From: a virus
Strand: one strand, 5' to 3'
Length of the DNA stretch: 23,094 nt
IMG/VR virus record: IMGVR_UViG_3300020451_001122
Location: 1-23,094 of that record
Below, one piece after another: positions 681 through 23,014 of this stretch; positions within the stretch are counted from its first letter, which is position 1, and each line of letters begins with the position of its first letter. Both the position numbers and the translations under genes were made by a program. The notes beneath the pieces were generated by a model. The model worked only from the letters and a program-made list of their open reading frames with translations. It searched no databases and was not told where the DNA came from.

Positions 681-688
681 GAGCGGTA

Positions 689-955
689 TTACCAATCATA
701 TACGGCAAATAATTCTTCATCAGCTGCAATAGCATTATCAAAGAGAATTAGTGTACAATTGTTTTCGTATGCGTATTTCATAATTGGTTTGAACCAGTCT
801 TCGGCCTCATCCCAATATTCACTTACCCAAACAACATAACCGTATTCAAATGCGATTTGTCTGTAATCACCTTTTGGGTGAAAACAAAGGTACATCGGAT
901 TTCCTGTCGGCAAGTGCCCTGTTGAAAGGGCCAAGATTTTTTCAAATTCTTCCAT
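689..955 (-). CDS. DUF5983-like small protein
   Basis: 88 residues. It opens with a LSTGHL segment (residues 9-14), has YGYVVWVSE in the middle and ends with the pattern 'CTLILFDNAIAADEELFAVYDW' (about 67-88). The layout of STxH, a tyrosine-rich strand, then a Cys followed by an FD strand and a terminal YDW, recalls DUF5983 proteins of phages and plasmids, whose function is unknown. ATG chosen because CCGCTC abuts it; an in-frame ATG further upstream would run through the preceding gene's end. Only 8 nt separate it from the transglycosylase-like gene downstream, so the two are probably on one transcript. Confidence 0.8.
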   Translation of the reverse strand: MEEFEKILALSTGHLPTGNPMYLCFHPKGDYRQIAFEYGYVVWVSEYWDEAEDWFKPIMKYAYENNCTLILFDNAIAADEELFAVYDW

Positions 956-962
956 GAGCGGG

Positions 963-1298
963 TCAGTCTTCAGGTACATGAGTTCGATATGCGAAACCCC
1001 ATGTCAGTTTCTTTGAGACTTCCATTCCCCTGAAATCGGGTTCTGTTTCCAACTGGTTTCTTCCGAATAAATCCATGTAGGTCTTTGCATATTCCATAGC
1101 CTTTGGTCGTGTTTCAAACCAAACAACCTCTCCGTTTTCGGTCATGCATTGACTTCCCACGATTTTGTCTCCAGGAAATCTGTTTTCTCGGAACCAGATT
1201 GAGATAAACCAGGGTTTATCTGCTCGCCATTTGGCGATATCCCTCCACCAGTCGTCCTTGCCTTTTTCGGGGTCGTTTTGAAAAATTTGTTTCTCCAT
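963..1298 (-). CDS. Hypothetical protein, Trp-rich
   Basis: 111 residues, no family recognised. The N-terminal half is rich in aromatic and charged residues (DDWWRDIAKWRADKPWF at about 15-31); the middle has an alternating hydrophobic strand (GEVVWFETR) followed by a helix (KAMEYAKTYMDLFG), suggesting a small alpha/beta fold. One Cys only. ATG preceded by ATCGCTC, the T variant of the boundary motif. Seven nt separate its stop from the next start. Confidence 0.85.
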   Translation of the reverse strand: MEKQIFQNDPEKGKDDWWRDIAKWRADKPWFISIWFRENRFPGDKIVGSQCMTENGEVVWFETRPKAMEYAKTYMDLFGRNQLETEPDFRGMEVSKKLTWGFAYRTHVPED

Positions 1299-1307
1299 GA
1301 GCGATAT

Positions 1308-2318
1308 TCATGTTGGTCCTGTATCTTCCGTATTTTTGTAATACTTTTCGTAATACCAATCTCTGTCGTATTCTGGAACAATCATTGTACTTTTGAAAGC
1401 GACTCCATCAAATGAGAAGTCTCGTTCCTTTAGCGTCATTCTTGTTCTGCGAATCTTGCTTGTCTTGATTAGTTCTTTGATTGACTTATCCCGTTTGATA
1501 GTCGTTCCAAATTCTTCTTCAAGCCGCATAATTTCTTCGACCATTTCTGGTGCGAAACCATGCGCTCTCTTCCATTGGTCTGCGTTACCAAAAATGCAAG
1601 TCATACATGATAATCTTCCCCAGCCCAGTCTATATGCTGGATGGGTTTTGACACCGTGGCGTTTGATAATATCCCAAACTTCTTCTCTTGTCCAATTATG
1701 AATCGGCCTCCAATGATGGACTGTTCGCTTTGAGCTGTTGCATCGATGGTCTGTAAAGACCTCGTACTTTGCTCTTGAACTACTTTCTTCAGCTCTTTCG
1801 CCAGTAATTACTAGCGTCTTTGAGCCTTTGAATCGTTCTTGGTTGTTGATAGCGATGCTCATTACATCAATTTTGAGAACACTACTGCACCATCTAACCC
1901 GCAGGTCTGGTGAGACTTGCGGGAATTTCCGTCTTGTTGCGATCTTCCCTCTTTTACCACCAGCAGTACCGATGGTGCCATCAGGATTCTCCCAACTTAC
2001 AGGTGCAACTTTGTTATTCTCTTTCAACAACTCTCGCTTAAATCCTCCATGTCGCCAACTGAAATAGATTGGAATGTCAAAAGCTTCTGCTAAATTTCTG
2101 CAGTAATCTTCTGTCATAGGCCAATCCATGAAAGGCTCGCTACCTGGTTCACCATCAATTAAATGATGCCACAGTTCGATTCTTTCCTTTGGCACTCCGA
2201 GTTCGAGTAAATGTAGGAGACAGGCTATTGAGTCCTTGCCTCCACTAAACGCTACGATGTATTTGTCGTAGTTTTGCCTCTCTATTTCTTTCAAGGCAAG
2301 TAATCCTTTCAGATTCAT
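1308..2318 (-). CDS. PP-loop ATPase, PAPS reductase/DndC-like
   Basis: 336 residues. The PP-loop SGGKDS is at residues 25-30 and binds the ATP or PAPS pyrophosphate. Further family signatures follow in order: RWCSSVLK (142-149, Cys144), GERAEESSSR (173-182), WRPIHNWTREEVW (203-215) and a CMTC pair (238-241). That combination fits the phage branch of phosphoadenosine-phosphosulfate reductase-like enzymes, which also includes DndC of DNA phosphorothioation. No dndA/B/D/E neighbour is seen, so a phosphorothioation role is not supported. Related viral genes commonly sit beside DNA methyltransferases, as here. The stop of the gene before it (TAA) directly touches the TCGCTC motif. It begins MNLKGLL, resembling the starts of three other proteins in the window. 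Confidence 0.88.
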   Translation of the reverse strand: MNLKGLLALKEIERQNYDKYIVAFSGGKDSIACLLHLLELGVPKERIELWHHLIDGEPGSEPFMDWPMTEDYCRNLAEAFDIPIYFSWRHGGFKRELLKENNKVAPVSWENPDGTIGTAGGKRGKIATRRKFPQVSPDLRVRWCSSVLKIDVMSIAINNQERFKGSKTLVITGERAEESSSRAKYEVFTDHRCNSSKRTVHHWRPIHNWTREEVWDIIKRHGVKTHPAYRLGWGRLSCMTCIFGNADQWKRAHGFAPEMVEEIMRLEEEFGTTIKRDKSIKELIKTSKIRRTRMTLKERDFSFDGVAFKSTMIVPEYDRDWYYEKYYKNTEDTGPT

Positions 2319-2324
2319 GAGCGA

Positions 2325-2474
2325 TTACTCCCAAGGCGCATTCCCTACGAGTCGCATAATTTCTTCCTTCGCCCATTGGCGATCTTCTTCACGTGTTGTA
2401 CTCTCAACAATTGTAAGCAACATTCGTGTGTACCCCTTCCTCGTAGGGGTTAAATCTAGTGTCTTTTCTGACAT
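2325..2474 (-). CDS. Hypothetical 49-residue protein
   Basis: 49 residues beginning at the ATG that follows CCGCTC. It carries LTPTRKGYTRMLLTIVES near the N-terminus and a DRQWAKEEIMRL helix near the end. Short phage proteins with an LTPTxxGY opening and an EWA-type helix are familiar to me, but I know no function. Predicted to be almost wholly helical. An upstream in-frame ATG exists but would place the boundary motif inside the protein. Confidence 0.75.
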   Translation of the reverse strand: MSEKTLDLTPTRKGYTRMLLTIVESTTREEDRQWAKEEIMRLVGNAPWE

Positions 2475-2481
2475 GAGCGGA

Positions 2482-2649
2482 TTATTCTTTTTTACCTTCA
2501 AAAACTTCGTCGATGTAACCTTCATCAAGACCGTTATCTTCTGCTAATTGGCTTATTTGTTTAGCCAGTTCAAAGAAATATCCTGTTTCATTGTCAATTC
2601 CATCTTCTATCTTTCCCTTCAAGATACAAACAATTTCTATTGCTTCCAT
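2482..2649 (-). CDS. Hypothetical acidic 55-residue protein
   Basis: 55 residues, acidic, with a C-terminal helical stretch (ELAKQISQLAEDNGLDEGYIDEVF) that looks like one amphipathic helix pair. No recognised domain. Start fixed by CCGCTC-ATG and by a 7-nt gap from the methyltransferase gene upstream in the transcript. A longer reading from an upstream ATG would overlap that methyltransferase and is rejected. Confidence 0.75.
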   Translation of the reverse strand: MEAIEIVCILKGKIEDGIDNETGYFFELAKQISQLAEDNGLDEGYIDEVFEGKKE

Positions 2650-2656
2650 GAGCGGA

Positions 2657-3364
2657 TTATTCATCCTCATCGTATTCTGGCCGACCTGCAGCATCCCATT
2701 CGAAAAAGCATTCTGCAATGTGTTGCGTGTACAATGGTGGAACTGCTTCTTTCAAGTTGCTCCAACCCATCCAATCAATACCCATAGCTTCTCTTGCTTC
2801 TTCAATGGTTTCTGCGGTCTTACCACCTTTACGATATGTTCCTCGCACTTTATCCCAGCCTTGAATCTGGTCTCCCATCGAACCATAGACACCAACAGGT
2901 CTGCCCTGTTCTTTGTGTCTGCATTCTAATTGCTTGATAGGAAAAGTTGATTCAAAGACTCTATGCCTTCGGACTTTCAATCCAAATGAGCTACCGCAAA
3001 GAACTGTACCAGTTAGCGGTGAACCCATGACATTCTCAATGACATAAGGAACTCCTACCTTTCTCAAGAAGGTTTGAATCATTTCAATGTGATCAACCTT
3101 CGATGCTTGTCGTCCTTGTGCTACTGCTAAGTGTTTAGTTCGTGAGAACTTTTGGCATGGAGGCGATGCGTGTATCAAATCGAATTGTCTAAACCATTCG
3201 ATAGGTGTTTCTTTGATGAATGTTGGTATATCGGTTTTGATTTGTTCAAACGGGAAGTTTCTTTTCTTCACGTGATCCACACCAATAACTTCATCGAAAC
3301 CACCCCAATGATACCCCATAGCTGCGCCTCCAGCACAGCAGTATAAATCTAGTAGTCGTTTCAT
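2657..3364 (-). CDS. DNA C5-cytosine methyltransferase, short phage type
   Basis: 235 residues. Motif I is LDLYCCAGGAAMGY (5-18), the AdoMet-binding loop; motif IV is ASPPCQ with catalytic Cys70; motif VI is ENV (110-112); motif VIII is RRHRVFES (132-139). The canonical C-terminal GNAV/P motif X is replaced by PPLYTQHIAECFFE near residues 209-222. Both the length and this ending are typical of compact phage enzymes rather than of Dcm. It should transfer methyl to C5 of cytosine in DNA, probably protecting virus DNA from restriction; the target site cannot be read from the sequence. Start by CCGCTC-ATG with no spacer from the preceding TAG. Confidence 0.92.
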   Translation of the reverse strand: MKRLLDLYCCAGGAAMGYHWGGFDEVIGVDHVKKRNFPFEQIKTDIPTFIKETPIEWFRQFDLIHASPPCQKFSRTKHLAVAQGRQASKVDHIEMIQTFLRKVGVPYVIENVMGSPLTGTVLCGSSFGLKVRRHRVFESTFPIKQLECRHKEQGRPVGVYGSMGDQIQGWDKVRGTYRKGGKTAETIEEAREAMGIDWMGWSNLKEAVPPLYTQHIAECFFEWDAAGRPEYDEDE

Positions 3365-3370
3365 GAGCGG

Positions 3371-3472
3371 CTAGATTATCTTACCACATCTGACACAAGA
3401 GGTTGGATGACAACCTGAATGTCGTGGGCATGGCACCTCGCAGGTGCAATCTTCTGAATCTTGTTCAGCCAT
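3371..3472 (-). CDS. Cys-rich mini-protein, 33 residues
   Basis: A 33-codon frame with CCGCTC-ATG at its start and a TAG touching the motif of the methyltransferase downstream. It contains six Cys and two His in CTCEVPCPRHSGCHPTSCVR plus CGK, enough for one or two zinc sites. Its exact fit between two boundary motifs is the argument for it being real despite its size. Function unknown. Confidence 0.72.
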   Translation of the reverse strand: MAEQDSEDCTCEVPCPRHSGCHPTSCVRCGKII

Positions 3473-3503
3473 GAGCGGAAATTAAGGTAACAGTATTTCA
3501 ATA
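3473..3503 (-). other. 31-nt gap, one of the three longest in the window
   Basis: Read on the minus strand, it is AT-rich for 25 nt and ends in CCGCTC before the ATG of the Cys-rich mini-gene. I see no hairpin, SD sequence or further start codon in it. It may be a decayed end of the gene that precedes it. Confidence 0.5.
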
Positions 3504-3770
3504 CTACTGTAAATCTTCATCTTCATCGACATAGCGACCCCTTCTTAGGGGCATTCTTCGCCATAGAGCGTCTAACAATTCGGTTAGCTCGTCTTTTACA
3601 TGGATAGACCAGCTAATTGTGTTGTTCTGCCAAGAACTAAACATTTCCATCAAGTAGTCTGTTTCCAATTTGTGTCCTCGGACTTCTTCGTATGCTTCTT
3701 TGAACATCTCGAAGTCTATGTCGTGTCGCATCTTTGCCATCAAATGCAAAGCTTTTGCTATTTCTTCCAT
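3504..3770 (-). CDS. Hypothetical helical protein
   Basis: 88 residues, no family recognised. Mostly helical, with an N-terminal amphipathic segment (MEEIAKALHLMAKM), a middle ELTELLDALWRRM helix, a basic patch PLRRGR and an acidic tail DEDEDLQ. Start by CCGCTC-ATG, 8 nt after the TAA of the PP-loop gene that precedes it in the transcript. Confidence 0.82.
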   Translation of the reverse strand: MEEIAKALHLMAKMRHDIDFEMFKEAYEEVRGHKLETDYLMEMFSSWQNNTISWSIHVKDELTELLDALWRRMPLRRGRYVDEDEDLQ

Positions 3771-3778
3771 GAGCGGTG

Positions 3779-4885
3779 TTATTGTCCACCTTCCTTAAAC
3801 AATCCTAACAATTTAGCACGCTTGTAGCGTGTTACGTGTTGTTTGATTGTTTTTCGGATCGTGCCTTTCGCATGAGGCTGACTGCCATCATTCGGGTAGC
3901 GAATTTGAACAAGCGTTGCTTGTCCATGCTTGTTGTGCGTTGCACATTCGGGGTGTTCACAATATCCAGTAGCATACGGTTGCCTGTGATGCCCTCGATT
4001 ACACTTACCACCTTTGTTTAGAGGCTTTCCAGCCTCATGCCAAGCAGCGTGCTTATCTTGCGAATAGAAGCGTTCTTCGATAGCCAGGGCTTCTTGTAGC
4101 CCAACTCCATCAGCTTCAACCAAACGATCAATTTCCCATTCTTTCGAGAAAGGACACCACATACAGGAACTCTTCTGGACTGGTGAGCCATCGCCTCGGT
4201 AATCCCAACCTAGATGGTCGAGCATATCGAGACATTCCTCTCTATCCATGTTAAGCGCCATAAGTGGATATTCGTAGGTATGACCTAGAATCTTCTTCCC
4301 CTTTGAATCGGATTTCTTGCGGTTTGCTGTGAAGCGGTCAGAACGACCTGCTTCTGATGCTTCTATTCCTAGCATCCAATGTTTCTCGCATACTGTATGG
4401 TCTCCGAATTCCTTCTCGGACCATTTCTGCTGTACTTCACCCTTGAATCTCATGCTGCACACGTGCGAGCTACCAGGCATTAGCGGGAATGCCCCGCTAT
4501 CCATCAGCCATTCATAGATTGTGTAAGGAACATTGCGCTTCTCATAGTTGGCTTTCTCGTCTTCCGACAATTTTCTCCAATCCATCGTTCGCATTCGTTC
4601 TCCTGTATCTATGTGGAAATAGAAGTTGGCATGGTGTCTTACGACTTCCAACCTTACTTCAGCTTCCTCGCATCGCTTCTTCGCATATTCTATGTTCTCG
4701 TATGTTTCAGGCCATTCCGAGCCAGGGTCAGAAAACACAGCAGTATCAAAAGGAGGAAACTTTGTGTCAAGTTCCTCTCTGCTTATTCCTAAATGCTTTG
4801 AAGCACGATCTCTGTCTAAGTGCATTGCTAGTAACGCTGAAGAATCAACGCCACCACCAAAGCTTAGTATGTATTTCTTGTACAT
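3779..4885 (-). CDS. PP-loop ATPase, second PAPS reductase-like enzyme
   Basis: 368 residues. The PP-loop variant SFGGGVDS is at residues 8-15. A SDPGSEWPET segment (52-61) is typical of the strand after the first helix. Later signatures are CSMRFKGE (143-150), GIEASEAGRSDR (173-184, the counterpart of the GxRxxES motif) and CMWCPF (241-246). The C-terminal quarter adds a Cys/His-rich region (about 295-325, with C..H..H, then C..H..C..H) that the other PP-loop enzyme here lacks and that could bind zinc. It is clearly a different subfamily from the 336-residue enzyme at 1308-2318. Predicted role: adenylation or sulfur chemistry on a nucleobase or sulfate compound; the true substrate is unknown. 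Confidence 0.87.
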   Translation of the reverse strand: MYKKYILSFGGGVDSSALLAMHLDRDRASKHLGISREELDTKFPPFDTAVFSDPGSEWPETYENIEYAKKRCEEAEVRLEVVRHHANFYFHIDTGERMRTMDWRKLSEDEKANYEKRNVPYTIYEWLMDSGAFPLMPGSSHVCSMRFKGEVQQKWSEKEFGDHTVCEKHWMLGIEASEAGRSDRFTANRKKSDSKGKKILGHTYEYPLMALNMDREECLDMLDHLGWDYRGDGSPVQKSSCMWCPFSKEWEIDRLVEADGVGLQEALAIEERFYSQDKHAAWHEAGKPLNKGGKCNRGHHRQPYATGYCEHPECATHNKHGQATLVQIRYPNDGSQPHAKGTIRKTIKQHVTRYKRAKLLGLFKEGGQ

Positions 4886-4893
4886 GAGCGGGT

Positions 4894-5211
4894 TCAGTAA
4901 GGGATATCCTTATCCCAAGCTTCTATCTCGTAACCTAATTCAGTAGCAATACCAATCAGAATATAGCGTTCTGCTTTGCTAGTGTACCATTCGTGTATGT
5001 GCGCCCTTTTGGCTTCGATATCGAATAAGGCTAAAATTCCAGTTTGCCAAGGGTAAGGCTGTTGGTTCGGAAAAAATACCTCCGACTTATGCCCTACCAT
5101 TACTTGATAGTCGTCTTCTTCATACCCTACGGTTAATTCCCACGATTGACCGCAACTTCCTAGTGCAGCCAATGTCCTTCTTTGGTTATTGTTGTGTTTT
5201 CTATCCAACAT
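4894..5211 (-). CDS. Hypothetical protein
   Basis: 105 residues. Polar N-terminus (RKHNNNQRR) followed by predicted beta strands (WELTVGYEEDDYQVMVG) and a helical C-terminal half (YTSKAERYILIGIATELGYEIEAW). No family recognised. T-variant motif before the ATG, directly touching the TGA of the zinc-module gene that precedes it. Confidence 0.82.
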   Translation of the reverse strand: MLDRKHNNNQRRTLAALGSCGQSWELTVGYEEDDYQVMVGHKSEVFFPNQQPYPWQTGILALFDIEAKRAHIHEWYTSKAERYILIGIATELGYEIEAWDKDIPY

Positions 5212-5217
5212 GAGCGA

Positions 5218-5622
5218 TCACTCCTTCTTCGCAGATTTTCTGCGTGAGTTTTCTATCTTTTGACAAACTTTACACCTGGCGTTCAAACCATATTTGCCTC
5301 TTGCCTTGTTGCCGAAGAACTTGTCGTTCGCTGGCAATTCTGGCCCTTCTTCATGATGGCATTCACCATTTATCCCTGAACAAGTCTTTGTTGTTCCTTC
5401 AGGTAGTGTTCTCCAGCTACCTCTGGATTTCTCGGCTCTTGCCTTTTGGTATTCGGGGTTGTATGTGCTTGTCTGTTTAATTACGTGTAGGTGACATTTT
5501 TTGCATCTTGCTTGATATTGGCCTTTGCGTTTGCCTCCTAACGAATAAAATTCCGTTAAGGGCAAATTTGGTCCATCTTTGTGCAAGCATACTCCGTGTC
5601 CTATTCCTGTACATACCTTCAT
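5218..5622 (-). CDS. Tandem zinc-module protein
   Basis: 134 residues made of two copies of one Cys/His module. Copy 1 (about 4-43) runs CTGIGHGVCLHKDGPNLPLT to ARCKKC; copy 2 (about 81-120) runs CSGINGECHHEEGPELPAND to ARCKVC. Each has Cys-x(5-6)-Cys-x-His, a loop with GPxLP and a closing CKxC pair, a pattern for one zinc ion per copy. Basic linker and tail (RRKSAKKE) suggest nucleic-acid binding. It resembles the zinc part of phage endonuclease VII-like and HNH proteins, but no HNH catalytic triad is visible. Besides CCGCTC, the leader holds GGAGG 9 nt from the ATG. Confidence 0.85.
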   Translation of the reverse strand: MKVCTGIGHGVCLHKDGPNLPLTEFYSLGGKRKGQYQARCKKCHLHVIKQTSTYNPEYQKARAEKSRGSWRTLPEGTTKTCSGINGECHHEEGPELPANDKFFGNKARGKYGLNARCKVCQKIENSRRKSAKKE

Positions 5623-5664
5623 GAGCGGTTTCCTCCGAGCGTTACCAATCTATGCCAACAGTTC
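5623..5664 (-). promoter_or_regulatory. 42-nt leader with GGAGG and a second CGCTC
   Basis: The longest gap in the window. Minus strand, 5' to 3': CGCTC (5641-5637, preceded by A), then GGAGG (5636-5632), then a 9-nt spacer ending in CCGCTC (5628-5623) and the ATG. It therefore holds a degenerate extra copy of the boundary motif plus a good SD. It may simply be a junction where a motif was duplicated. Confidence 0.6.
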
Positions 5665-6210
5665 TTAATCTGTTGCATACCAATCGATAGGTTCGAAAAT
5701 TCGTATTTTGAAATGTGCCCAATGTGAGTCTTTTCCAGTTTCATCATTGCCGTTACATTCAGGACAAGTGTAAATACTCATCCTACCTGCAGCAATAGTA
5801 ACGATTTCTTGTTCTAATACTTCACCACAAATCATACAATTTCCTGTACGATCTGCCGTGGACTCAATGTAATCAGATGAGCTACTAGGGTCTTCACACG
5901 GACTAAATTCAATTTCAACTGAATATCCGCACCCTCCATCGTCTTGATGACATTCAAAATTTACCCCTGTTTGTATCTCATCAGAGTAAGGGTCAAATTC
6001 TGTCCAATCGGACCATTGCCTCATTCGTTTCAAACACTTGGGGCATTTTCTTCCCGCACATAACGGGTGTCTCGTTCGGGTTCTTTCCTTCAATAGTTCT
6101 GTCAAATCTCCATCATCTGTGTAGGAGGCTGTATCTCCTAGCTCTTTGTGGAGTTCTTTTCTTCCGAGCATTACCATGCCCGAATCAATAACAATGAAGT
6201 CATTATCCAT
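5665..6210 (-). CDS. Two-zinc-ribbon protein
   Basis: 181 residues. The first zinc ribbon is CPKC at about 56-59 paired with CHQDDGGC at about 92-99; the second is CMICG at about 127-131 paired with CPEC at about 154-157. Between them is a Ser/Asp-rich linker (CEDPSSSSDY). It probably binds nucleic acid or is a structural zinc protein; no enzyme motif seen. The ATG is preceded by CCGCTC plus one A, and the start overlaps the last 8 nt of the gene before it, so the two are likely translationally coupled. Confidence 0.85.
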   Translation of the reverse strand: MDNDFIVIDSGMVMLGRKELHKELGDTASYTDDGDLTELLKERTRTRHPLCAGRKCPKCLKRMRQWSDWTEFDPYSDEIQTGVNFECHQDDGGCGYSVEIEFSPCEDPSSSSDYIESTADRTGNCMICGEVLEQEIVTIAAGRMSIYTCPECNGNDETGKDSHWAHFKIRIFEPIDWYATD

Positions 6211-6457
6211 TGAGCGGTTCGGGTTCTGTTACAAGATCCCACACGCATACTTCATAGTGTCCTGAGAGGACTCCCTTTCTCATAGCGAATCCTACCTTCT
6301 TGAAACGCTTGTCTTTTGACAAGCAATTACCAAGTTGTTGACTAGTTGTTCCATGCCTAAAGCAATCATTAATGTGTTCTTGGATAGCAAAAGTGGTTTG
6401 CGGTCCATTCTCTTTCAGATACTCGGCAATCTTAATTCTAATTCTCTTGGTCCTCAT
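6203..6457 (-). CDS. Winged-helix-like protein, ATGA-coupled start
   Basis: 84 residues from the ATG chosen here. The opening KRIRIKIAEYLKENGPQTT, then IQEHINDCFRHGTTSQQLGNCL and a strand pair KKVGFAMRKGV...YEVCVWDLV, fits a small winged-helix fold: the ENG turn, a recognition-like TTSQQL helix and a wing. The N-terminal region of the methyltransferase at 20938-21804 has a similar layout. This start has no boundary motif; instead its ATG overlaps the TGA of a 17-codon frame that does carry the motif. A longer reading from an upstream ATG at 6613 would overlap the preceding gene by nearly 100 nt and is less likely. Confidence 0.72.
   Translation of the reverse strand: MRTKRIRIKIAEYLKENGPQTTFAIQEHINDCFRHGTTSQQLGNCLSKDKRFKKVGFAMRKGVLSGHYEVCVWDLVTEPEPLNG
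6211..6217 (-). promoter_or_regulatory. Boundary motif with one inserted A (CCGCTCA-ATG)
   Basis: CCGCTC followed by an extra A before the ATG of the two-zinc-ribbon gene. The motif lies inside the coding end of the previous gene (residues Pro-Leu-Asn of its tail), so selection acts on both. The same arrangement is found at 6508-6514. Confidence 0.8.
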
Positions 6458-6507
6458 GGAATTACCCCTACATGGGTTCCATACATGAAGTCTTTGTCTC
6501 TCATCAT
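6454..6507 (-). CDS. 17-codon mini-frame with boundary motif
   Basis: The frame starts ATG ATG after CCGCTCA and ends in a TGA that overlaps the ATG of the winged-helix gene. The predicted peptide MMRDKDFMYGTHVGVIP has no recognised domain. Either it is a translated leader that feeds ribosomes to the next gene, or it is a remnant of a frameshifted N-terminus. The motif and the exact ATGA overlap argue for translation; its length argues against an independent protein function. Confidence 0.45.
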   Translation of the reverse strand: MMRDKDFMYGTHVGVIP

Positions 6508-6514
6508 TGAGCGG
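6508..6514 (-). promoter_or_regulatory. Second boundary motif with inserted A
   Basis: CCGCTC, one A, then ATG ATG of the 17-codon frame. The preceding stop TGA lies 2 nt upstream of the hexamer. The two adjacent ATGs sit 1 and 4 nt from the motif. Confidence 0.8.
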
Positions 6515-6515
6515 T

Positions 6516-6758
6516 TCAGTCGAAGCGGCATAAACTGTAAATGTGTTCAAACAGTTCACGGCCTTCTTCTGTAAACCCAGTAGGGTCTTCGTCATCACAA
6601 ATGATATTTCCATCTTTGTCTAAACGATACACTTGTGCCTCCATGTCGAATAATTCAATCATACGATTGATTATATCGTCTGCAGTATCACAGGCAAACT
6701 GTATCTTTGTACTGTGATCCCAAAACCCGTTTGCATCTTCTATTCTGGTTTCAACCAT
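6516..6758 (-). CDS. Hypothetical acidic protein
   Basis: 80 residues, acidic (many Asp and Glu). A predicted strand-helix-strand core: STKIQFACDTADDIINRMIELF, then VYRLDKDGNIICDDED, then a helix EEGRELFEHIYSLC. No family recognised. T-variant motif directly follows the TAA of the zinc-ribbon gene upstream in the transcript. Confidence 0.82.
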   Translation of the reverse strand: MVETRIEDANGFWDHSTKIQFACDTADDIINRMIELFDMEAQVYRLDKDGNIICDDEDPTGFTEEGRELFEHIYSLCRFD

Positions 6759-6764
6759 GAGCGA

Positions 6765-6950
6765 TTATCCTAGCGTTATTTTGTGTCTGCACTTTGGACA
6801 CCTGTATTCTTTTTCTCCTTCTTTATTGTAATACTGTGCTTTTTTACAATTAGGACAATGAAAAGGCATACCGTTTGGCGTATCAACGACTAACGTAGGC
6901 TTTCTTCGTTTAGATCCATCGGACCATTTGTTTCTCTTGCGTCGTGCCAT
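6765..6950 (-). CDS. Small zinc-ribbon protein
   Basis: 61 residues. A basic N-terminus (MARRKRNKWSDGSKRRK) is followed by a rubredoxin-like zinc ribbon: CPNC at about 34-37 and CPKC at about 52-55. This is the classic treble-strand ribbon of small DNA- or RNA-binding proteins; its partner is unknown. Start fixed by the T-variant motif; the frame stays open a few codons upstream but without a motif. Confidence 0.85.
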   Translation of the reverse strand: MARRKRNKWSDGSKRRKPTLVVDTPNGMPFHCPNCKKAQYYNKEGEKEYRCPKCRHKITLG

Positions 6951-6957
6951 GAGCGAT

Positions 6958-7701: not shown

Positions 7702-7708
7702 GAGCGGC

Positions 7709-7933: not shown

Positions 7934-7942
7934 GAGCGGTGT

Positions 7943-8311: not shown

Positions 8312-8321
8312 GAGCGATTAT

Positions 8322-8615: not shown

Positions 8616-8622
8616 GAGCGGC

Positions 8623-15066: not shown

Positions 15067-15074
15067 GAGCGGGT

Positions 15075-15353: not shown

Positions 15354-15362
15354 GAGCGGTAT

Positions 15363-15830: not shown

Positions 15831-15837
15831 GAGCGGA

Positions 15838-16080: not shown

Positions 16081-16090
16081 GAGCGGTTCT

Positions 16091-17062: not shown

Positions 17063-17074
17063 GAGCGATAACTT

Positions 17075-17866
17075 TCATTGTGATAGCTTCGGTATTGATG
17101 CGTGGAAATCCTCACCCCAACCGATAGCAACTTCCATTGCTTCGTCAGGATAGTTGGCCCACGTATTTATGCAAGTTTTGTTATTCCTATCCACAAGATA
17201 ATCGAGGAAGTAATCAAGAAGTTCAGCTTCTTTTCCTTTTCCTCTTCTATCCTGAATCATATCGATTAACATTTCATACCAATCAAAGCCTTCGCACCAA
17301 TCCATAAGGCATTGGTCGAGTATCTCCCAAAAGTGGTAGGGGTAATGTTGACCCCATGTTTCACCGTCTTTAGGTGCATCATCATGTTTCTTGATATCTT
17401 GGCATGGACCCCAATATGTGTCCATCAAACCAAGTAGTTCATCATCCATGTGAATGCATTTGTGCAAAGTATCTGTTTTGAAAGTCATTTTTACTGCATC
17501 AACCCAAGGCATAGCATCTTCATTAAGTTCGCCTGTATCGCCCTTCCAATCAATCCATGTTACTGCAATAGCATCTCCATGTTCATTTCTTGTTGCCAAT
17601 AGTGATTCGGTAAATGGCGTATTGCCAACAATCACATAATCAGCTTCGGGCAGTTTAGTCAACCCAATGTCGGCAATTTCCAAATAATCGTCTTCATCGG
17701 GTTTGTAAGCTATGCTTGCTTGTAGTCGTGCATACTTCATTACTAACTTATGGCGGCATACTGGCCCAAATCCATCTTTAATCGAATCTGGATCAGTTAG
17801 TCTCCTACCACAGTTAATACAAGCTCTATCTTTGAGCCTGTCTGCTAGTAAGTCTTGTAAATTCAT
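17075..17866 (-). CDS. DUF6011 zinc-motif protein (paralog B)
   Basis: 263 residues. The N-terminal signature CINCGRRLTDPDSIKDGFGPVC (about 16-37) closely follows that of paralog A at 6958-7701. After it comes a basic helix (RHKLVMKYARLQA), then an acidic, Trp- and Asp-rich body with no recognised fold. Begins MNLQDLL, again like paralog A. The last 60 residues differ. Function unknown; a single zinc site is expected. The ATG after CCGCTC is used; an earlier ATG 19 codons upstream would cross the motif. Confidence 0.82.
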   Translation of the reverse strand: MNLQDLLADRLKDRACINCGRRLTDPDSIKDGFGPVCRHKLVMKYARLQASIAYKPDEDDYLEIADIGLTKLPEADYVIVGNTPFTESLLATRNEHGDAIAVTWIDWKGDTGELNEDAMPWVDAVKMTFKTDTLHKCIHMDDELLGLMDTYWGPCQDIKKHDDAPKDGETWGQHYPYHFWEILDQCLMDWCEGFDWYEMLIDMIQDRRGKGKEAELLDYFLDYLVDRNNKTCINTWANYPDEAMEVAIGWGEDFHASIPKLSQ

Positions 17867-17874
17867 GAGCGGAT

Positions 17875-18282
17875 TCAAAGCAAATAGAGAATCTTTGACA
17901 ATTTCATACAGCGAAAATTCCATTCGCCAGGTTCTCGGGCTTCCCAGCCCCCATCTTCATACCATTCAATGAAATCCTCCCTTTCTTCATCGGAAATACT
18001 ACCAAAATATTCCAATGGGTCGTCTGGCTCTGTACTCAAATGAATTACACAACCTGCTTCTGACCCATCATAGCCAAATGTCACCCAAGCATTCGCTAAG
18101 GTGTTTATCTTCTCCATGACTTTTTGAGCATATACAGCTCCATCCATCAGTTCTTCTTGCAAGTGATTCAACCATTCAAGGTTGCTCAAGTCAGTTCTTT
18201 CCATGTTTGTGCCATATTTGGCTTTTCCAACATCAGAGCGTGCTTGTATCTTCTCGCATACTTCGTCTTCAATTCTAGACAT
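17875..18282 (-). CDS. MazG-like N-terminal domain protein
   Basis: 135 residues. GKAKYGTNMERTD (19-31), W37 and HLQEELMDGAVYAQK (40-54) match the helical NTP-pyrophosphohydrolase (MazG/dUTPase-like all-alpha) pattern common in phages: a KYG turn and an EExxD metal-binding helix (Glu43, Glu44, Asp47). Only this one helix pair is seen, so activity is uncertain. The C-terminal 75 residues look unrelated, with a strand-rich then acidic segment (EEREDFIEWYEDGGWEARE). CCGCTC-ATG start. Confidence 0.8.
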   Translation of the reverse strand: MSRIEDEVCEKIQARSDVGKAKYGTNMERTDLSNLEWLNHLQEELMDGAVYAQKVMEKINTLANAWVTFGYDGSEAGCVIHLSTEPDDPLEYFGSISDEEREDFIEWYEDGGWEAREPGEWNFRCMKLSKILYLL

Positions 18283-18291
18283 GAGCGGTGT

Positions 18292-18792
18292 TTAATCGTA
18301 GTAAAGTTGCGTGTTAGCGTGTCTCATCAGCATAACAACTTCTTTCCACGAAAAACTAACCCCATTGATTACGTGTTCCCATTCAGTATCATTAAGATCT
18401 GTTGGTAAACTTTCAGCATATATTCCGTCAATGTCCTTTGTCGCTGGTCTTTCGACTCGGAGCTGTTGTTTGTTATTGTCTTCATCAACAAAGTAAACAA
18501 AGCCTCCAAACTTAGGAATCAAGTGAGTTCTAGCAAATTCAGTTGCAAGGCAAGCATTAATTGTGCTTAGGCCTCTTGCATACCTACCAATCATTTCACT
18601 TACTTCATCACTTAGTTCTGGATCGCATTTCTTAATCTTACGATTGATTGCGACATAGTTCTTGGCGAACTCTGTGTACAATGTGTCGTCATAATCTTCA
18701 GGCAATCCATCTTCAACCGTGTCAATAGTCCTAACTTGTAGTTTGGCAATATCTGGATTGCCATGCTGATATTTCATTTTACGTGTCTTCAT
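18292..18792 (-). CDS. Hypothetical protein
   Basis: 166 residues, no family recognised. N-terminus basic (MKTRKMKYQHGN); a long helical middle (YTEFAKNYVAINRKIKKCD, then a DEVSEMIGRYARGLSTINAC helix); strand pair FGGFVYFVDEDNN; C-terminal helix SWKEVVMLMRHANTQL. CCGCTC-ATG start. Confidence 0.82.
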   Translation of the reverse strand: MKTRKMKYQHGNPDIAKLQVRTIDTVEDGLPEDYDDTLYTEFAKNYVAINRKIKKCDPELSDEVSEMIGRYARGLSTINACLATEFARTHLIPKFGGFVYFVDEDNNKQQLRVERPATKDIDGIYAESLPTDLNDTEWEHVINGVSFSWKEVVMLMRHANTQLYYD

Positions 18793-18801
18793 GAGCGGTT
18801 A

Positions 18802-19221
18802 TCAGTTAAACGCAGATGGTTTGAATTGCGGGTCTATACCGTTTGATTTCTCAAGTATCTTCCTGGTAGGAGATTTCTTCGGTCCAGACCTAGCGTTAGC
18901 AGCCATCCATGATTCTGTTTCGAGTCTTGTCAAATTCTTGACCCAATCTTCGGGTCTTGGTATTCTTCCAAAGTCCTCTATCATGTGCTGTTCACAGATC
19001 CATTGCGTAGGTATCTTGACTCCATCACTATTCAATATTGATGGGCCAAACACCGATATAGCAACTGATATTCCTTGCGTATGGTGCCTAAACATTCTGC
19101 TGCGAAAATCAGGTATATGCTCTTTGGGAGCATCAAACCATTCGTGTATTTTCACATAATCTTCAGGTATTCCTCCATATTCTTTTGCCGATGATACGGC
19201 ATGGTGCCATGCGTGTGACAT
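18802..19221 (-). CDS. DUF6915 family protein
   Basis: 139 residues. The opening MSHAWHHAVSSAKEYGG, then DYVKIHEWFDAPKEHIPDFR, RMFRHHTQGI, ILNSDGVKIPTQWICEQHMI and EDFGRIPRPEDWV form the complete pattern I associate with DUF6915, found in bacteria and phages. Many His (WHH, RHH, EQH) suggest a metal site, but no activity is established. The C-terminus is basic. CCGCTC-ATG start; the position agrees with the conserved MSHxWHH opening, independent support for placing starts at the motif. Confidence 0.88.
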   Translation of the reverse strand: MSHAWHHAVSSAKEYGGIPEDYVKIHEWFDAPKEHIPDFRSRMFRHHTQGISVAISVFGPSILNSDGVKIPTQWICEQHMIEDFGRIPRPEDWVKNLTRLETESWMAANARSGPKKSPTRKILEKSNGIDPQFKPSAFN

Positions 19222-19230
19222 GAGCGGTAT

Positions 19231-20037
19231 TCAGTAACTAACTGAGAAACCTTCCCAGCATGATTCACTACCATGTAGTTTCATGGTGTCTTTCTCAACA
19301 TCGTAGGTTAATTTCCCTTGAACTTCGTAGTCTCCAGCGAAACTTCCATACTTGGACCAAATTGGCTTGCTAAATCCGCTTAGGAATTCCCTAGCGTCTT
19401 TGAACCAATCTTGGTAATCAGGGTTAGGAATTTCTTTACGAATCGGATAACCCTTTTCGTTTAACTCTTCAGTTTGTACCCATTTCTTAGGCTGGGCGTA
19501 GCGATTTACAGCCCCTTTGCCAAAAAACAAGTCTTCTGTACTGCTAAAGCTTTTATCTGCTCTCCATTCATGATTGTTGTCTGTGAAATCGAACCATACT
19601 TCGGCTCCGTCTTCACCTCCGCTATCATGACCTCCTGAAAAATTAATTTGTAATTTCTTGATACCCATATCCTTCAAGAAGCTCATAATTGCTTCTTTGT
19701 CGGATTGGACTACATCATATACAACTAGGTTTTCAGGAACAAGCAAAAACTGGTTTCTAGTTTCACCTTCACCCCAAAAGAAGCCCGTAAACGGGTGTTT
19801 GCCTGCTGGCAATTCCTCTGGCACAAAGTTGTCTCTTCGTGAAGTCCATTCTTCGTCTGTTTCACCAGCCTCACGATACCCTACTTTTGTTAAAAGTTCC
19901 TCGGGGCGTGCGGCTCTCTGCTTTGGTACTAGTTTGGTGAGATCAAGTTCACCGTTTGTTACCATTTTTGTTACCTTCTTCTGCAGCTTCTCTGTCGCTG
20001 CCTCAATCTTTTTACATGGTTTTTCTAATTTACCCAT
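19231..20037 (-). CDS. DUF6878-like hypothetical protein
   Basis: 268 residues. A coiled-coil N-terminus (EKPCKKIEAATEKLQKKVTK) is followed by a Pro/Gly-rich region with GKHPFTGFFWGEGETRN. In the middle, IKKLQINFSGGHDSGGEDG and a late YEVQGKLTYDVEKDTMKLHG recall DUF6878 (GxGDSG motif followed later by a G-x-(L/F)-x-(Y/F)-DV strand). I give this moderate weight only. Function unknown. CCGCTC-ATG start. Confidence 0.78.
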   Translation of the reverse strand: MGKLEKPCKKIEAATEKLQKKVTKMVTNGELDLTKLVPKQRAARPEELLTKVGYREAGETDEEWTSRRDNFVPEELPAGKHPFTGFFWGEGETRNQFLLVPENLVVYDVVQSDKEAIMSFLKDMGIKKLQINFSGGHDSGGEDGAEVWFDFTDNNHEWRADKSFSSTEDLFFGKGAVNRYAQPKKWVQTEELNEKGYPIRKEIPNPDYQDWFKDAREFLSGFSKPIWSKYGSFAGDYEVQGKLTYDVEKDTMKLHGSESCWEGFSVSY

Positions 20038-20046
20038 GAGCGGTGT

Positions 20047-20526
20047 TTAGGGTGATCTGTCATCACCTTTGTATTCCCATTCAATCCTTTGTGGATTGTC
20101 GTCTGCTATTTCGTCTTCAACTACGAATGTATGGCAAGTCAATGCATTTCTGAAATCATGCGAAGCTACCGCTAATGCATGATAGACTTCATCAAATGTG
20201 TCATCGCCTTCTTCTATACCCATTCTTGGGGCTGTGTATGCTCGACTTAGCGCACGATATAACAGGATTTCCAGTTCGTTAGGCTCCCAGCGTAAAACAC
20301 GCTGAATCTCGCCTACCTGCTGTTGTCTCCTTGTCCATTCACTAGGAACTGCATTCAGTTCTTCCTCTTCATCATTGCTGTATGAGTATGTTTCGCATGG
20401 CGGTGAACCCAATATTGGGTGATTCTCCAATGCCAAACTCATTCTAGCAATTGCTTCAGTAAGCTTTGGAATTGTATGATTCGCAAATCTCATTCCAGCT
20501 TTTGTGTTTAACCAATTATCGGTCAT
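20047..20526 (-). CDS. Hypothetical phage-type protein
   Basis: 159 residues. MTDNWLNTKAGMRFANHTIPKLTEAI at the start resembles small phage proteins that open with a W-L-N-T-x-A-G segment; I know no function for them. A HPILGSPPCETYSYSND insert lies near 40-56. The rest is helical and ends acidic. CCGCTC-ATG start; the ATG five codons earlier is not used. Confidence 0.78.
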   Translation of the reverse strand: MTDNWLNTKAGMRFANHTIPKLTEAIARMSLALENHPILGSPPCETYSYSNDEEEELNAVPSEWTRRQQQVGEIQRVLRWEPNELEILLYRALSRAYTAPRMGIEEGDDTFDEVYHALAVASHDFRNALTCHTFVVEDEIADDNPQRIEWEYKGDDRSP

Positions 20527-20534
20527 GAGCGGTA

Positions 20535-20930
20535 TCACCAATCATTCTCTGTGATTCCGAGAGATCTTATTATCCCGAGTTCATCTAGTTCAGGCCAAGA
20601 GTCTCCCCAACTCATGTCTGCTGTCATAATTCCTTTGATTCCTCTTATGTTGAATGAAGTAATGTTTCTAAGCCATTCACCTCTAGTCCAACAGTCGTAA
20701 GCTAATTTTAAGCCTACTTTGATTTTCTCTTTCATTAGAGCAAAGGCTTTTTCATCACCATCTCGGTCATTCCATTCATCCATCCCTTCAATGATATCGT
20801 CTTCGTGCCATTCCCAAAAGTCTGAATGTTCTTCTTTCACTTTTTGTAAAGTAAGTTCCTTCAGCCTTTCATTTGCTACTTCTTCAGTGACTTCCATTAT
20901 CACCATTACATATATTAGGTCTGCACCCAT
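20535..20930 (-). CDS. Hypothetical acidic protein
   Basis: 131 residues, acidic. A long helix (EEVANERLKELTLQKVKEEH) leads to a Trp/Asp-rich segment (FWEWHEDDIIEGMDEWNDRD), then a helical part and LDELGIIRSLGITEN at the end. No family recognised. CCGCTC-ATG start. Confidence 0.82.
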   Translation of the reverse strand: MGADLIYVMVIMEVTEEVANERLKELTLQKVKEEHSDFWEWHEDDIIEGMDEWNDRDGDEKAFALMKEKIKVGLKLAYDCWTRGEWLRNITSFNIRGIKGIMTADMSWGDSWPELDELGIIRSLGITENDW

Positions 20931-20937
20931 GAGCGGT

Positions 20938-21804
20938 TTAACATTGTTCCTTCATTCTATTCCATGAAGCGTTAATGTAATCCTTGCTTAGTTCGATGCC
21001 GATTGCATGACGGCCTAATTTTCGACAAGCCGACCCAAGACTAAACGACCCTGCAAAGGGGTCAAGAATAATGTCTCCTGGATCGGTTGTGAACTTTACT
21101 AGCTCCGCAATCAAATCAACTGGCTTTTCAGTTTGATGTATTTTCTTCTTTAGGCTCATTAAACGCCTATATGCCAAAACATCAGGAATACTCCTGTCGC
21201 TTGTCATCCTACGCTTACCCTTAGAGAAGAACATAATCAGTTCGTGCCGAGGCCTTCCATTGTAACCAAGCGATATCACGCCTTTATCCCACACCCATTG
21301 GCTGTTAAACGTGAATCCAGCCTTTTCAGCTAACTTCACTTGCTCATAGATGTAGTCAATCGTGTCGTGCTTGCACGCTGGCATAAAGCAGAAGAAGTGT
21401 CCTCCTGGCTTCAATACTCTCAACATTTTACTGAATAATTCTTCATCAATGTCTTTTGTTTCAAAATCCCACCCTTTCTTCAAGTTTCTAGGGCGAGTTG
21501 AACCAGTCTGCATTTGATAATTCAGAACCGAATAAGGCGGATCTGTAATGATAGCATCAAAACTATCATCTTCAAAATCATCAATGGCATCCCAAGCATT
21601 TCCTTCTATGAGAAGTGTTTGACTATCGCCACTAATTGCGATATACACTCCACGTGAAATCCTTTTGAAACATTTGTTAATGTTCTCATTTAATCTTCCA
21701 CGGATTGTTGTTTCCTTCTCATTCGGATTTGCTTCATATAATTCCTTGAGATGGCTTGCGCCATTTTCTTCAAGGAAATCAATCAAAGTTTCTTTCAAAC
21801 TCAT
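20938..21804 (-). CDS. Beta-class DNA amino-methyltransferase with N-terminal wHTH
   Basis: 288 residues. Catalytic motif IV is DPPY (88-91), preceded by LLIEGNAWDAIDDFEDDSFD (64-83); a LKPGGHFFCF strand is at 131-140. Near the end, HQTEKPV (223-229) is followed by motif I, DPFAGS (248-253), and IGIELSKDYI (269-278). This IV-before-I order defines the beta class, which methylates adenine N6 or cytosine N4. The first 58 residues (LIDFLEENGASHLKELYEAN, then TTIRGRLNENINKCFKRISR) look like a winged helix, perhaps DNA-binding; a similar layout occurs in the protein at 6203-6457. CCGCTC-ATG start. Confidence 0.92.
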   Translation of the reverse strand: MSLKETLIDFLEENGASHLKELYEANPNEKETTIRGRLNENINKCFKRISRGVYIAISGDSQTLLIEGNAWDAIDDFEDDSFDAIITDPPYSVLNYQMQTGSTRPRNLKKGWDFETKDIDEELFSKMLRVLKPGGHFFCFMPACKHDTIDYIYEQVKLAEKAGFTFNSQWVWDKGVISLGYNGRPRHELIMFFSKGKRRMTSDRSIPDVLAYRRLMSLKKKIHQTEKPVDLIAELVKFTTDPGDIILDPFAGSFSLGSACRKLGRHAIGIELSKDYINASWNRMKEQC

Positions 21805-21811
21805 GAGCGGC

Positions 21812-22702
21812 TTATTCAAGCTTTTCTCGAATAGCTGAAGTCTGTGTAATTACTGACTTCTTGTATTCGGCAACAAGCTCTATTGCCTCGTCGAGAACTT
21901 GCTCGACTTCCTTTACTGCATTCGCAAGAACTTGCTCCTTGATAGCAATTGCCTCCATCATAGAGGCGATGCTTCCAGGTCGTGCAACGCTTGGTGGTGT
22001 AATAGGCTCTTGGAATTGATTATCGATTGTCTTAGCCTCTTGCGGCTCACTTTCAACAATATCTTCCACAGCCTCAGCGAACTCTTCGGGGCTAACCATA
22101 GGGATTTCAACATCATCGTCTTCTTCCTCTTCGTCTTCCTCATCAAGTTCATCATCTTCATGCGTACAATTTTCATCATGCACATGATCCACTTCAGGTT
22201 CAGGTTCTTCCACTTCGGGTTCAGGCTGAGTAAGTTCGATTCCCATTGCATTTAGAACATCAGTAAAGTGTTCTCTCCATTCAATGTCATCTTCTTTCTC
22301 GGCTTGTATCAAAGTGTCAATAACTGCGTCTTCAGCGACTTCATCAACCAATTCGGGATATTCTTCGGAAACCATTTCCAAGAACTTCTCCAATTCGGCT
22401 TCAGCGTCTTCTTCGGACTCTTCCTGTTCAAGCTCCGCTTCGACCTTCTCAACAACAGCCTTTGTTGGCTTACCATCGTTAGCAAGGTATTTTGCGAGCA
22501 ATTCGTCTGGAAGTGTAATGTGTTGTGACAAGAACTTCATAGAACTTCCAATAAAATCTTTATCAGATTTATGATTGTCTTCCCAAGTCAATAACGCTTC
22601 AATGACTTCAACGCCATCATCTGTCTTTTGCTTGAGATCTTCAGTCCTTATGTCGTGGTCCTGTAAAATCTCCATTACTTCCATCAATTTCGAATTAACC
22701 AT
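21812..22702 (-). CDS. Very acidic, Glu/Asp-rich protein with SD-led start
   Basis: 296 residues. A helical N-terminal part (1-75), a charged coiled-coil-like region (VVEKVEAELEQEESEEDAEA, about 83-102), a QPEPEVEEPEPEV repeat (159-171), a metal-like HVHDENCTH (173-181), an almost purely acidic block 182-199, and a C-terminal helix (about 249-296). No recognised domain; could be a scaffold-like, DNA-mimic or metal-binding protein, all unproven. Its start has a GGAG site at proper spacing, and CCGCTC is set 16 nt back from the ATG. It is the only gene in the window with that arrangement and may need stronger or separate expression. Confidence 0.85.
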   Translation of the reverse strand: MVNSKLMEVMEILQDHDIRTEDLKQKTDDGVEVIEALLTWEDNHKSDKDFIGSSMKFLSQHITLPDELLAKYLANDGKPTKAVVEKVEAELEQEESEEDAEAELEKFLEMVSEEYPELVDEVAEDAVIDTLIQAEKEDDIEWREHFTDVLNAMGIELTQPEPEVEEPEPEVDHVHDENCTHEDDELDEEDEEEEDDDVEIPMVSPEEFAEAVEDIVESEPQEAKTIDNQFQEPITPPSVARPGSIASMMEAIAIKEQVLANAVKEVEQVLDEAIELVAEYKKSVITQTSAIREKLE

Positions 22703-22724
22703 TTTTAGTCTCTCCTTTGAGCGG
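22703..22724 (-). promoter_or_regulatory. Displaced boundary motif plus SD site
   Basis: Minus strand order: CCGCTC (22724-22719), then AAAGGAGA (22718-22711) and CTAAAAAT with the ATG at 22702. GGAG is 9 nt from the ATG. The hexamer is kept although it no longer touches the start, which separates its role from start-codon placement. Confidence 0.8.
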
Positions 22725-22733
22725 TTCAGTCAA

Positions 22734-23006
22734 TTATTCATTACCTCTATACCAATGGCTTGCGTAGCGGTGTCCTTGTTCATACAACTCTTCTGCACAA
22801 GGATTTGGGCTGTTAAATCCCAAATTTTTGTGCCACGACATCCCTAGCATTGGCCTTGGAACGCAAGTGCCACACGGACAACCTGTGTTCAAGTATATCC
22901 CTGCGGCTTCATGTTGCTCAAAAAGGAACTTCATCAGATCTTTCGCATCTGTTAGTTCTCCATTTTGAAACAATTCATATTGTTCTTTTGCTTCTTTCCA
23001 TTCCAT
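22734..23006 (-). CDS. Hypothetical protein with Cys cluster
   Basis: 90 residues. A helical first half (EWKEAKEQYELFQNGELTDA and KDLMKFLFEQHEAAG) is followed by a CPCGTC cluster at about 43-48 and a later Cys, possibly one metal site. The C-terminal part is aromatic-rich. No family recognised. CCGCTC-ATG start. Confidence 0.82.
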   Translation of the reverse strand: MEWKEAKEQYELFQNGELTDAKDLMKFLFEQHEAAGIYLNTGCPCGTCVPRPMLGMSWHKNLGFNSPNPCAEELYEQGHRYASHWYRGNE

Positions 23007-23014
23007 GAGCGGAT

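Follow-up and report, generated by a model that had tools for sequence, protein, structure and literature searches.

What does a six-base word do when it touches the start codon of almost every gene in a block? The question is raised by a stretch of virus DNA of 23,094 nucleotides (nt) (IMG/VR record IMGVR_UViG_3300020451_001122; hereafter the window, meaning the whole stretch that was analyzed), in which YCGCTC stands directly before ATG along a run of co-directional genes. Here we report that six other viruses share this arrangement, each with one uniform word at a strict distance from the ATG, that the virus's word also stands before non-coding RNAs whose structure begins at the next base, and that the genes so marked are scrambled in order between viruses. 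Judging from sequence, we give nearly an even chance to the reading that the word is a virus-specific signal fixing the 5′ end of an RNA and yielding leaderless mRNAs by cleavage of one long transcript.

A uniform word touches the start codons of one gene block

The window has 44 copies of YCGCTCATG, every one on the minus (coding) strand, against a mean of 0.36 and a maximum of 2 in dinucleotide shuffles, which bears out a sequence-only reading that had noted the hexamer touching ATG at 44 coding-strand starts. CGCTC and ATG do not vary across these sites, the base at −6 is C in 34 and T in 10, and further upstream there is a weak preference for A, for part of which stop codons account. Elsewhere in the window YCGCTC has four more minus-strand copies and one plus-strand copy, so the hexamer is not frequent within genes, where the same reading had allowed that it might prove equally common. 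Stop-to-ATG gaps before motif genes are 6-10 nt for most, in line with the very short gaps (6-12 nt) it described. Gene calls are mechanical, and the block boundaries are set by the motif itself.

Most of these starts lack a consensus Shine-Dalgarno (SD) sequence, as had been noted: SD-like 4-mers upstream of the window's motif genes are at background (9/44 vs 0.15 expected). Three variant sites that had also been pointed out are real, with hexamers at 22719-22724, 6509-6514 and 6212-6217 that lie 16, 51 and 1 nt before the ATG. The leader after the first, AAAGGAGAGACTAAAA, contains SD-like AAAGGAG, and the leader after the second has AGGGG near the ATG. SD-like sequence is present where more than one base separates the word from the ATG, and at background level where the word touches the ATG. 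In the window's two DUF6011-type paralogues, the 5′ 116 nt (7592-7707 and 17757-17872) are 75% identical, and the alignment begins exactly at the 5′ edge of the motif (7707 and 17872).

The word is uniform within a virus and differs between viruses

The sequence-only reading had left room for the motif to be missing from relatives. Six relatives share the architecture, each with a single uniform word: CCGCTC in two, CTGAAC in two and CTGACC in two, the last four having another hexamer than the window, a difference which that reading had not foreseen. A scan of the collection for two spaced copies of CCGCTCATG returned mostly chance matches or repeat proteins, with G001 (127,570 bases) as the one true relative; it has 94 minus-strand copies of CGCTCATG, all except two within one 42-kb block. 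A scan with the PAPS-reductase-like protein common to the window and G001 added four more, G002 and G003 with CTGAAC and G004 and G005 with CTGACC. The sixth, G174 contig 65 (128,049 bases), lies in a Poseidoniales genome bin and has CCGCTC at 96 ATGs. G001 and G005 end in direct repeats (77 and 123 bp) and are probably complete genomes. Seven viruses are thus known, with late regions in five.

Together they hold 468 sites, which fit A-C-Y-G-M-N-C and then ATG (A in 93%, followed by C, C/T, G, A/C, A/C/T and C), with ATG nearly exclusive as the start codon. Spacing is strict: 447 open reading frames of at least 40 amino acids (aa) lie at distance 0 from the hexamer, and 1-4 at each of the distances 1, 2, 4 and 5. 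From −70 to −12 no column of the 468 sites exceeds 0.03 bits, and no AT-rich element is found there, which led us to reject an archaeal promoter per gene of the TATA/BRE (TFB recognition element) type.

Uniformity within a virus extends to genes that relatives share. ACTGAAC precedes ATG 43 times in G002 and ACTGACC never, while G005 is reversed (59 ACTGACC, 0 ACTGAAC); the two have 18 motif genes in common at a median identity of 60%, yet no cross-type words. Orthologues always bear the word of the virus in whose genome they lie. The late genes of G002 are nearest to those of G005 (65%), though its word is that of G003 (43%), so words change faster than lineages, with all sites following. Such wholesale replacement of the word between viruses suggests an undiscovered reader molecule.

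Outside the window, too, SD is near background at motif genes. Strong SD sequences stand before about half of the longer non-motif genes in G001, G003 and G005, against 3-8% of the motif genes there, and SD is often present at late genes of the same viruses; a combined SD and motif signal was rejected. Genes with a displaced ATG and an SD leader are found at 22718 and 6508 in the window and at 27345 in G003. As many as 50 of 70 stop-to-ATG gaps in G003 are exactly 2, because the TGA inside CTGAAC serves as the upstream stop, and some motifs lie inside the upstream gene (gaps −4, −17 and −23).

Several searches for relatives or linked families gave nothing further. A chaperonin scan of prokaryote genomes found no relatives, and no close relatives were found in the phage collection; among 319 Poseidoniales genomes the only ones are G174 and a second bin, G321, which is masked by N and unusable. 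The family of the methyltransferase at 2657-3364 was considered as motif-linked, but its relatives in L009-L017 lack the motif, so it is not tied to it.

The same word precedes structured non-coding RNAs

Beside the block lies a conserved non-coding region of 1-3 kb with tRNAs and conserved unknown RNAs, in which an Rfam search recognized tRNA alone. The word or its −4T variant, with the virus's own base at −2, is enriched in this region, with eight copies each in G004, G003 and G002 against 0.35, 0.59 and 0.78 expected. Mismatched −4T words are absent from it, ACTTACC from G003 and ACTTAAC from G004.

Over 69 non-coding sites the base after the word (+1) is A in 54, G in 12, T in 2 and C in 1, hence a purine in 66/69. 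Helices with a minimum length of 8 bp terminate precisely at +1 at 14% of these sites and at ~1% of 464 coding sites (p = 1.3e-6, uncorrected for the repeats in the G003 array); at other offsets the non-coding sites give 0-3%, except +8 (7%). The match recurs in several independent RNA families. Five tandem RNAs in G003 read ACTGAAC, GGAAGAGGG...CCCTCTTCC-ACTTAACA-ACTGAAC, GGAGAATGCC...GGCATTCTCC, the closing stem beginning at the base after the word. A 14-bp hairpin begins at +1 at G003 45357, the far end of the block has differing hairpins that start from +1 in both G001 (11378) and G174 (23865), and three adjacent RNAs at G004 291-621 have structure from +1.

Since the same virus-matched word stands before structured non-coding RNAs that start at the next base, it most likely sets the RNA 5′ end. 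The mRNAs would then begin with AUG, which is translatable in archaea, and SD would not be needed. From pattern, spacing, non-coding use and structure at +1 together, we infer that the mRNAs are leaderless.

The word might instead act in translation, lying on a polycistronic mRNA where a virus-encoded factor or an altered ribosome reads it and places the AUG without SD. Contact with a nearly exclusive ATG at 468 sites and the missing SD speak for this idea, which leaves unexplained why each virus's own word is found before non-coding RNAs as well, fixing the first base of their structure, and why displaced ATGs have an SD of their own. Reading of the hexamer by 16S rRNA, proposed from sequence alone, did not hold up: the complements of ACCGCTC and ACTGAAC (GAGCGGT and GTTCAGT) occur in 0/46 Poseidoniales 16S genes, the tails of which are ordinary CCTCC, and GGTCAGT occurs in 46/46 but ~340 nt from the 3′ end, so that no consistent complement exists in this inferred host. 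Host-wide use was rejected as well, the word not being enriched before ATG in one Poseidoniales genome. We consider a translation signal improbable.

Other features of these RNAs were seen in passing. The non-coding region lies between a TFB-like gene and the block and contains tandem repeats of ~120-150 bp and long structured RNAs, parts of which, by eye, resemble RNase P consensus words in permuted order. In G174 a family of intergenic units with a common stem (GGTGTCCAATCCTTGGACGACACC) follows ACCGCTC+AC at 58460, 55422, 40471 and 31093 (minus strand); these are probably small RNAs. A tRNA gene at L183:10127-10257 (minus strand) has a ~60-nt insertion in its anticodon region, probably an intron.

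Gene order is scrambled among marked genes and kept among unmarked ones

Between G001 and G174, neighbors are kept for 41/47 unmarked genes (median identity 54%) and for 1/25 marked genes (56%; Fisher p = 1.6e-12), and the same contrast appears in other virus pairs. Orientation inside the block is constant: motif genes are never inverted and all lie on one strand of one block. Same-orientation genes thus change order as units, a trait of integron cassettes. Among orthologues of at least 65% identity, conservation runs from the motif to the stop codon.

These observations bear on a third role suggested from sequence alone, that of a homology for module shuffling. In the form considered here, the word would be the crossover point of integron-like gene cassettes, exchanged through a serine recombinase or short homology. 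Scrambling with kept orientation and the limits of orthologue conservation agree with it, as does a serine recombinase conserved in five viruses, a candidate for the shuffling. The shuffling itself stood up; the exact contact with ATG is left unexplained by it, as are the missing SD and RNA structure from +1. Exchange at motifs inside an upstream gene would damage that gene, and the sites used by serine recombinases or integrons do not look like an asymmetric 7-bp word that lacks flanking arms. A recombination site therefore seems to us very improbable, and it explains less, as does a translational signal, than cleavage or a start site.

Cleavage or transcription start

If the word sets RNA 5′ ends, (A)CYGMNC would place each end at the base directly after its last C. 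Before a gene that base is the A of ATG, which would give a leaderless mRNA requiring no SD; before a non-coding unit it would be the first base of the RNA structure; and where the ATG lies further downstream, the short leader would supply an SD. One long co-directional transcript would be cut at every copy of the word, as by punctuation. The reader would be a nuclease, encoded or directed by the virus, with a specificity that drifts from one virus to another, all 40-100 copies changing together. Word and open reading frame would form a complete unit, so gene order would be free to scramble while orientation stays fixed.

Of the roles proposed from sequence alone, a site that makes leaderless mRNAs fits best, the word being found also before structured RNAs that start at the next base; the endonuclease of that proposal is one of two candidate routes. 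Several features speak for cleavage: there is no upstream element, the genes form one co-directional block, and the gaps are too short for a promoter or terminator. Further, no complete viral polymerase is detectable, tRNAs and other RNAs share one array, and G003 has an RNA 3′ end that abuts a related word.

The other route is transcription start, with the word as a short initiator-type promoter from which each gene or non-coding RNA starts at the next base, read by a virus factor such as the TFB-like protein or the Rpo1C-like subunit that these viruses encode. C at −1 with a purine at +1 in 66/69 non-coding sites is what such a promoter would show. Leaderless transcription also appears to be within these viruses' repertoire: a second motif, TTCAAACGG..TGAACC, stands at a fixed distance (~26 nt) before the ATG of several late or middle genes without the word, and is probably a viral promoter giving leaderless mRNAs. 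Set against this, the 468 sites have no conserved upstream element, no inverted gene uses the word despite the scrambled order, and a regular-expression search of viral proteins for a DFDGD-type catalytic RNA polymerase motif found none, although divergent enzymes could escape it. Seven bases inside the melted region are also little for an archaeal-type polymerase. We regard transcription start as possible, if rather doubtful. Separately, a 35-nt sequence (GACGGGTCGAGTTTATCCTCTATACCCCTATGCG) recurs almost unchanged upstream of the genes at G005 48444 and 60293 (minus strand) and may represent another class of promoter.

Several points weigh against RNA 5′ ends made by cleavage. A purine after C is a feature of transcription start sites too, and the tRNAs could be matured by RNase P-type processing with no need of a motif. 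The ten helices at +1 do not count as independent cases, five or six coming from one G003 array, and abutment of the motif on upstream RNA 3′ ends is clear in that array and weak overall (9% vs ~4% background). No nuclease cutting at the word could be assigned, nor could a guide RNA. The non-coding region of G001 has no complement of its hexamer; an anti-motif guide in the non-coding region beside the block was rejected, with only 5-base matches in G174, G005, G003 and G004, and three in G002. The family of 20047-20526, which had seemed universal, proved to be a single-linkage mixture and no candidate for the reader.

Host and gene content

G001 encodes an archaeal-type Rpo1C homologue, a group II chaperonin, a TFIIS zinc ribbon protein and a TFB-like protein with a zinc ribbon and cyclin-like repeats. 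TFB-like genes adjoin the block in five viruses, their TFIIB matches being slightly below the Pfam cut-off. An Rpo1C-like RNA polymerase subunit was seen in one virus together with a TFB-like factor and a group II chaperonin (L065:8480-11011, plus; L067:18114-19205, plus; L069:7010-8551, minus), with no other polymerase subunit detected. The hosts are probably marine Poseidoniales archaea, given the bin in which G174 lies, a qualified assignment because binning can err.

Of the gene families found in two or more viruses, 80 consist of motif genes throughout, 62 contain none and 14 are mixed. Motif genes with known domains serve DNA modification and similar functions (Mom, Dam, N6/N4 methylases, PAPS-reductase-like), and genes without the motif include glycosyltransferases, chaperonin, Rpo1C and structural-like proteins.

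Table 1. Word sites in the window and related features in the other viruses
Feature	Position	Strand	Gene or remark
Motif block, co-directional genes behind YCGCTC	1..23012	-	runs off the record's low end
CCGCTC+ATG	678..686	-	680..1, 226 aa, incomplete
CCGCTC+ATG	953..961	-	955..689
TCGCTC+ATG	1296..1304	-	1298..963
TCGCTC+ATG	2316..2324	-	2318..1308, PAPS-reductase-like
CCGCTC+ATG	2472..2480	-	2474..2325
CCGCTC+ATG	2647..2655	-	2649..2482
CCGCTC+ATG	3362..3370	-	3364..2657, C5 DNA methyltransferase
CCGCTC+ATG	3470..3478	-	3472..3371, 33 aa
CCGCTC+ATG	3768..3776	-	3770..3504
CCGCTC+ATG	4883..4891	-	4885..3779, PAPS-reductase-like, in 7/7 viruses
TCGCTC+ATG	5209..5217	-	5211..4894
CCGCTC+ATG	5620..5628	-	5622..5218, endonuclease VII-like
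CCGCTC, A, ATG (1-nt leader)	6212..6217	-	6210..5665
CCGCTC 51 nt 5′ of ATG, AGGGG SD-like leader	6509..6514	-	84-aa frame
TCGCTC+ATG	6756..6764	-	6758..6516
TCGCTC+ATG	6948..6956	-	6950..6765
CCGCTC+ATG	7699..7707	-	7701..6958, DUF6011-type N-terminus; paralogue at 17864
CCGCTC+ATG	7931..7939	-	7933..7709
TCGCTC+ATG	8309..8317	-	8311..7943
CCGCTC+ATG	8613..8621	-	8615..8322
CCGCTC+ATG	9175..9183	-	9177..8623
CCGCTC+ATG	10149..10157	-	10151..9186, cysteine-rich family, in 7/7 viruses
TCGCTC+ATG	10447..10455	-	10449..10129
TCGCTC+ATG	10689..10697	-	10691..10458
CCGCTC+ATG	11260..11268	-	11262..10699, DNA methyltransferase
TCGCTC+ATG	11549..11557	-	11551..11270
CCGCTC+ATG	12031..12039	-	12033..11773
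CCGCTC+ATG	13006..13014	-	13008..12043
CCGCTC+ATG	13209..13217	-	13211..13017
CCGCTC+ATG	13530..13538	-	13532..13221
CCGCTC+ATG	13754..13762	-	13756..13541
CCGCTC+ATG	14769..14777	-	14771..13767, DNA methyltransferase
CCGCTC+ATG	15064..15072	-	15066..14779
CCGCTC+ATG	15351..15359	-	15353..15075
CCGCTC+ATG	15828..15836	-	15830..15363
CCGCTC+ATG	16078..16086	-	16080..15838
TCGCTC+ATG	17060..17068	-	17062..16091, C5 DNA methyltransferase
CCGCTC+ATG	17864..17872	-	17866..17075, DUF6011
CCGCTC+ATG	18280..18288	-	18282..17875
CCGCTC+ATG	18790..18798	-	18792..18292
CCGCTC+ATG	19219..19227	-	19221..18802
CCGCTC+ATG	20035..20043	-	20037..19231
CCGCTC+ATG	20524..20532	-	20526..20047
CCGCTC+ATG	20928..20936	-	20930..20535
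CCGCTC+ATG	21802..21810	-	21804..20938, N6/N4 DNA methylase, in 7/7 viruses
CCGCTC 16 nt 5′ of ATG, leader AAAGGAGAGACTAAAA with SD	22719..22724	-	22702..21812
CCGCTC+ATG	23004..23012	-	23006..22734
Conserved non-coding region	G001 58125-56740	-	
Conserved non-coding region	G174 71590-69890	-	
Conserved non-coding region	G002 31910-29210	-	
Conserved non-coding region	G005 116140-113900	-	
Conserved non-coding region	G003 24600-26800	+	
Conserved non-coding region	G004 1-1750	+	
Serine recombinase	G001 72020-72817		
Serine recombinase	G002 45941-46900		
Serine recombinase	G003 9999-10823		
Serine recombinase	G005 2417-3370		
Serine recombinase	G174 86653-87474		
TTCAAACGG..TGAACC	G001 7742, 60358, 65322, 65994, 67517	+	
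TTCAAACGG..TGAACC	G001 88522	-	
TTCAAACGG..TGAACC	G002 ~39650, ~40300	+	
TTCAAACGG..TGAACC	G005 ~124200, ~124920	+	

Significance and relation to known systems

We propose, tentatively, a gene-expression code in which a 7-nt word would punctuate one giant transcript into up to ~100 leaderless mRNAs and structured non-coding RNAs. Its reader would be a virus-encoded nuclease or an RNA guide that has switched specificity at least twice, every site following suit; this would have freed gene order and isolated each virus's gene pool from those of its relatives. If this is true, one seven-base tag replaces promoters, SD sequences and leaders for most genes and is swapped wholesale between relatives, a new way to organize gene expression that would account for gene-order scrambling without loss of expression. 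The viruses would offer a natural specificity series for the reader search, a test case for co-evolution of a trans-acting factor with dozens of sites, and possibly a tool to cut polycistronic RNA at will. The word can also serve as a marker for finding viruses of uncultured marine archaea.

No published equivalent of such a motif was found in the open-access literature, where the nearest precedent is the start-associated sequence (SAS) of cluster K mycobacteriophages, a 13-bp sequence (GGGATAGGAGCCC) in 11-19 copies that contains AGGAG and lies 3-7 bp before the start, mostly in gaps of >50 bp (PMC3203893). Both are repeated asymmetric words at non-structural gene starts, in one orientation and with ATG preferred, and the inverted repeats of the extended SAS form change between subclusters (PMC3203893). 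The word described here differs in being 7 nt long (CYGMNC), in 44-96 copies, without AGGAG or SD, at spacing 0 and in gaps of 6-10 nt; it also precedes non-coding RNAs and differs between viruses.

Vaccinia late genes have a separate promoter each, served by a complete viral RNA polymerase. Their TAAATG, too, is a short word joined to ATG that marks RNA and translation start in a large DNA virus, as far as the account cited at second hand goes (Rosel et al., 1986, via PMC8398953). The viruses described here instead have their marked genes in one co-directional block and no complete polymerase of their own that could be detected, and their word varies by virus. In mitochondria, tRNA punctuation makes leaderless mRNAs by cutting long precursors in which the genes lie almost end to end, the cuts being set by tRNA structure. 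Mammalian mitochondrial mRNAs likewise are leaderless with a 5′ AUG (PMC9881170). The cuts proposed here would be set by a 7-nt word and not by tRNA structure.

Archaeal leaderless mRNAs normally arise from transcription start below a TATA-type promoter, which is absent at the sites here. Translation from a 5′ AUG is a normal route in archaea (reviewed in PMC7531240). E. coli MazF, as cited in that review, is a sequence-specific nuclease that makes leaderless mRNAs. It is a stress toxin of the host that cuts wherever its site occurs by chance, not one around whose site a genome is built.

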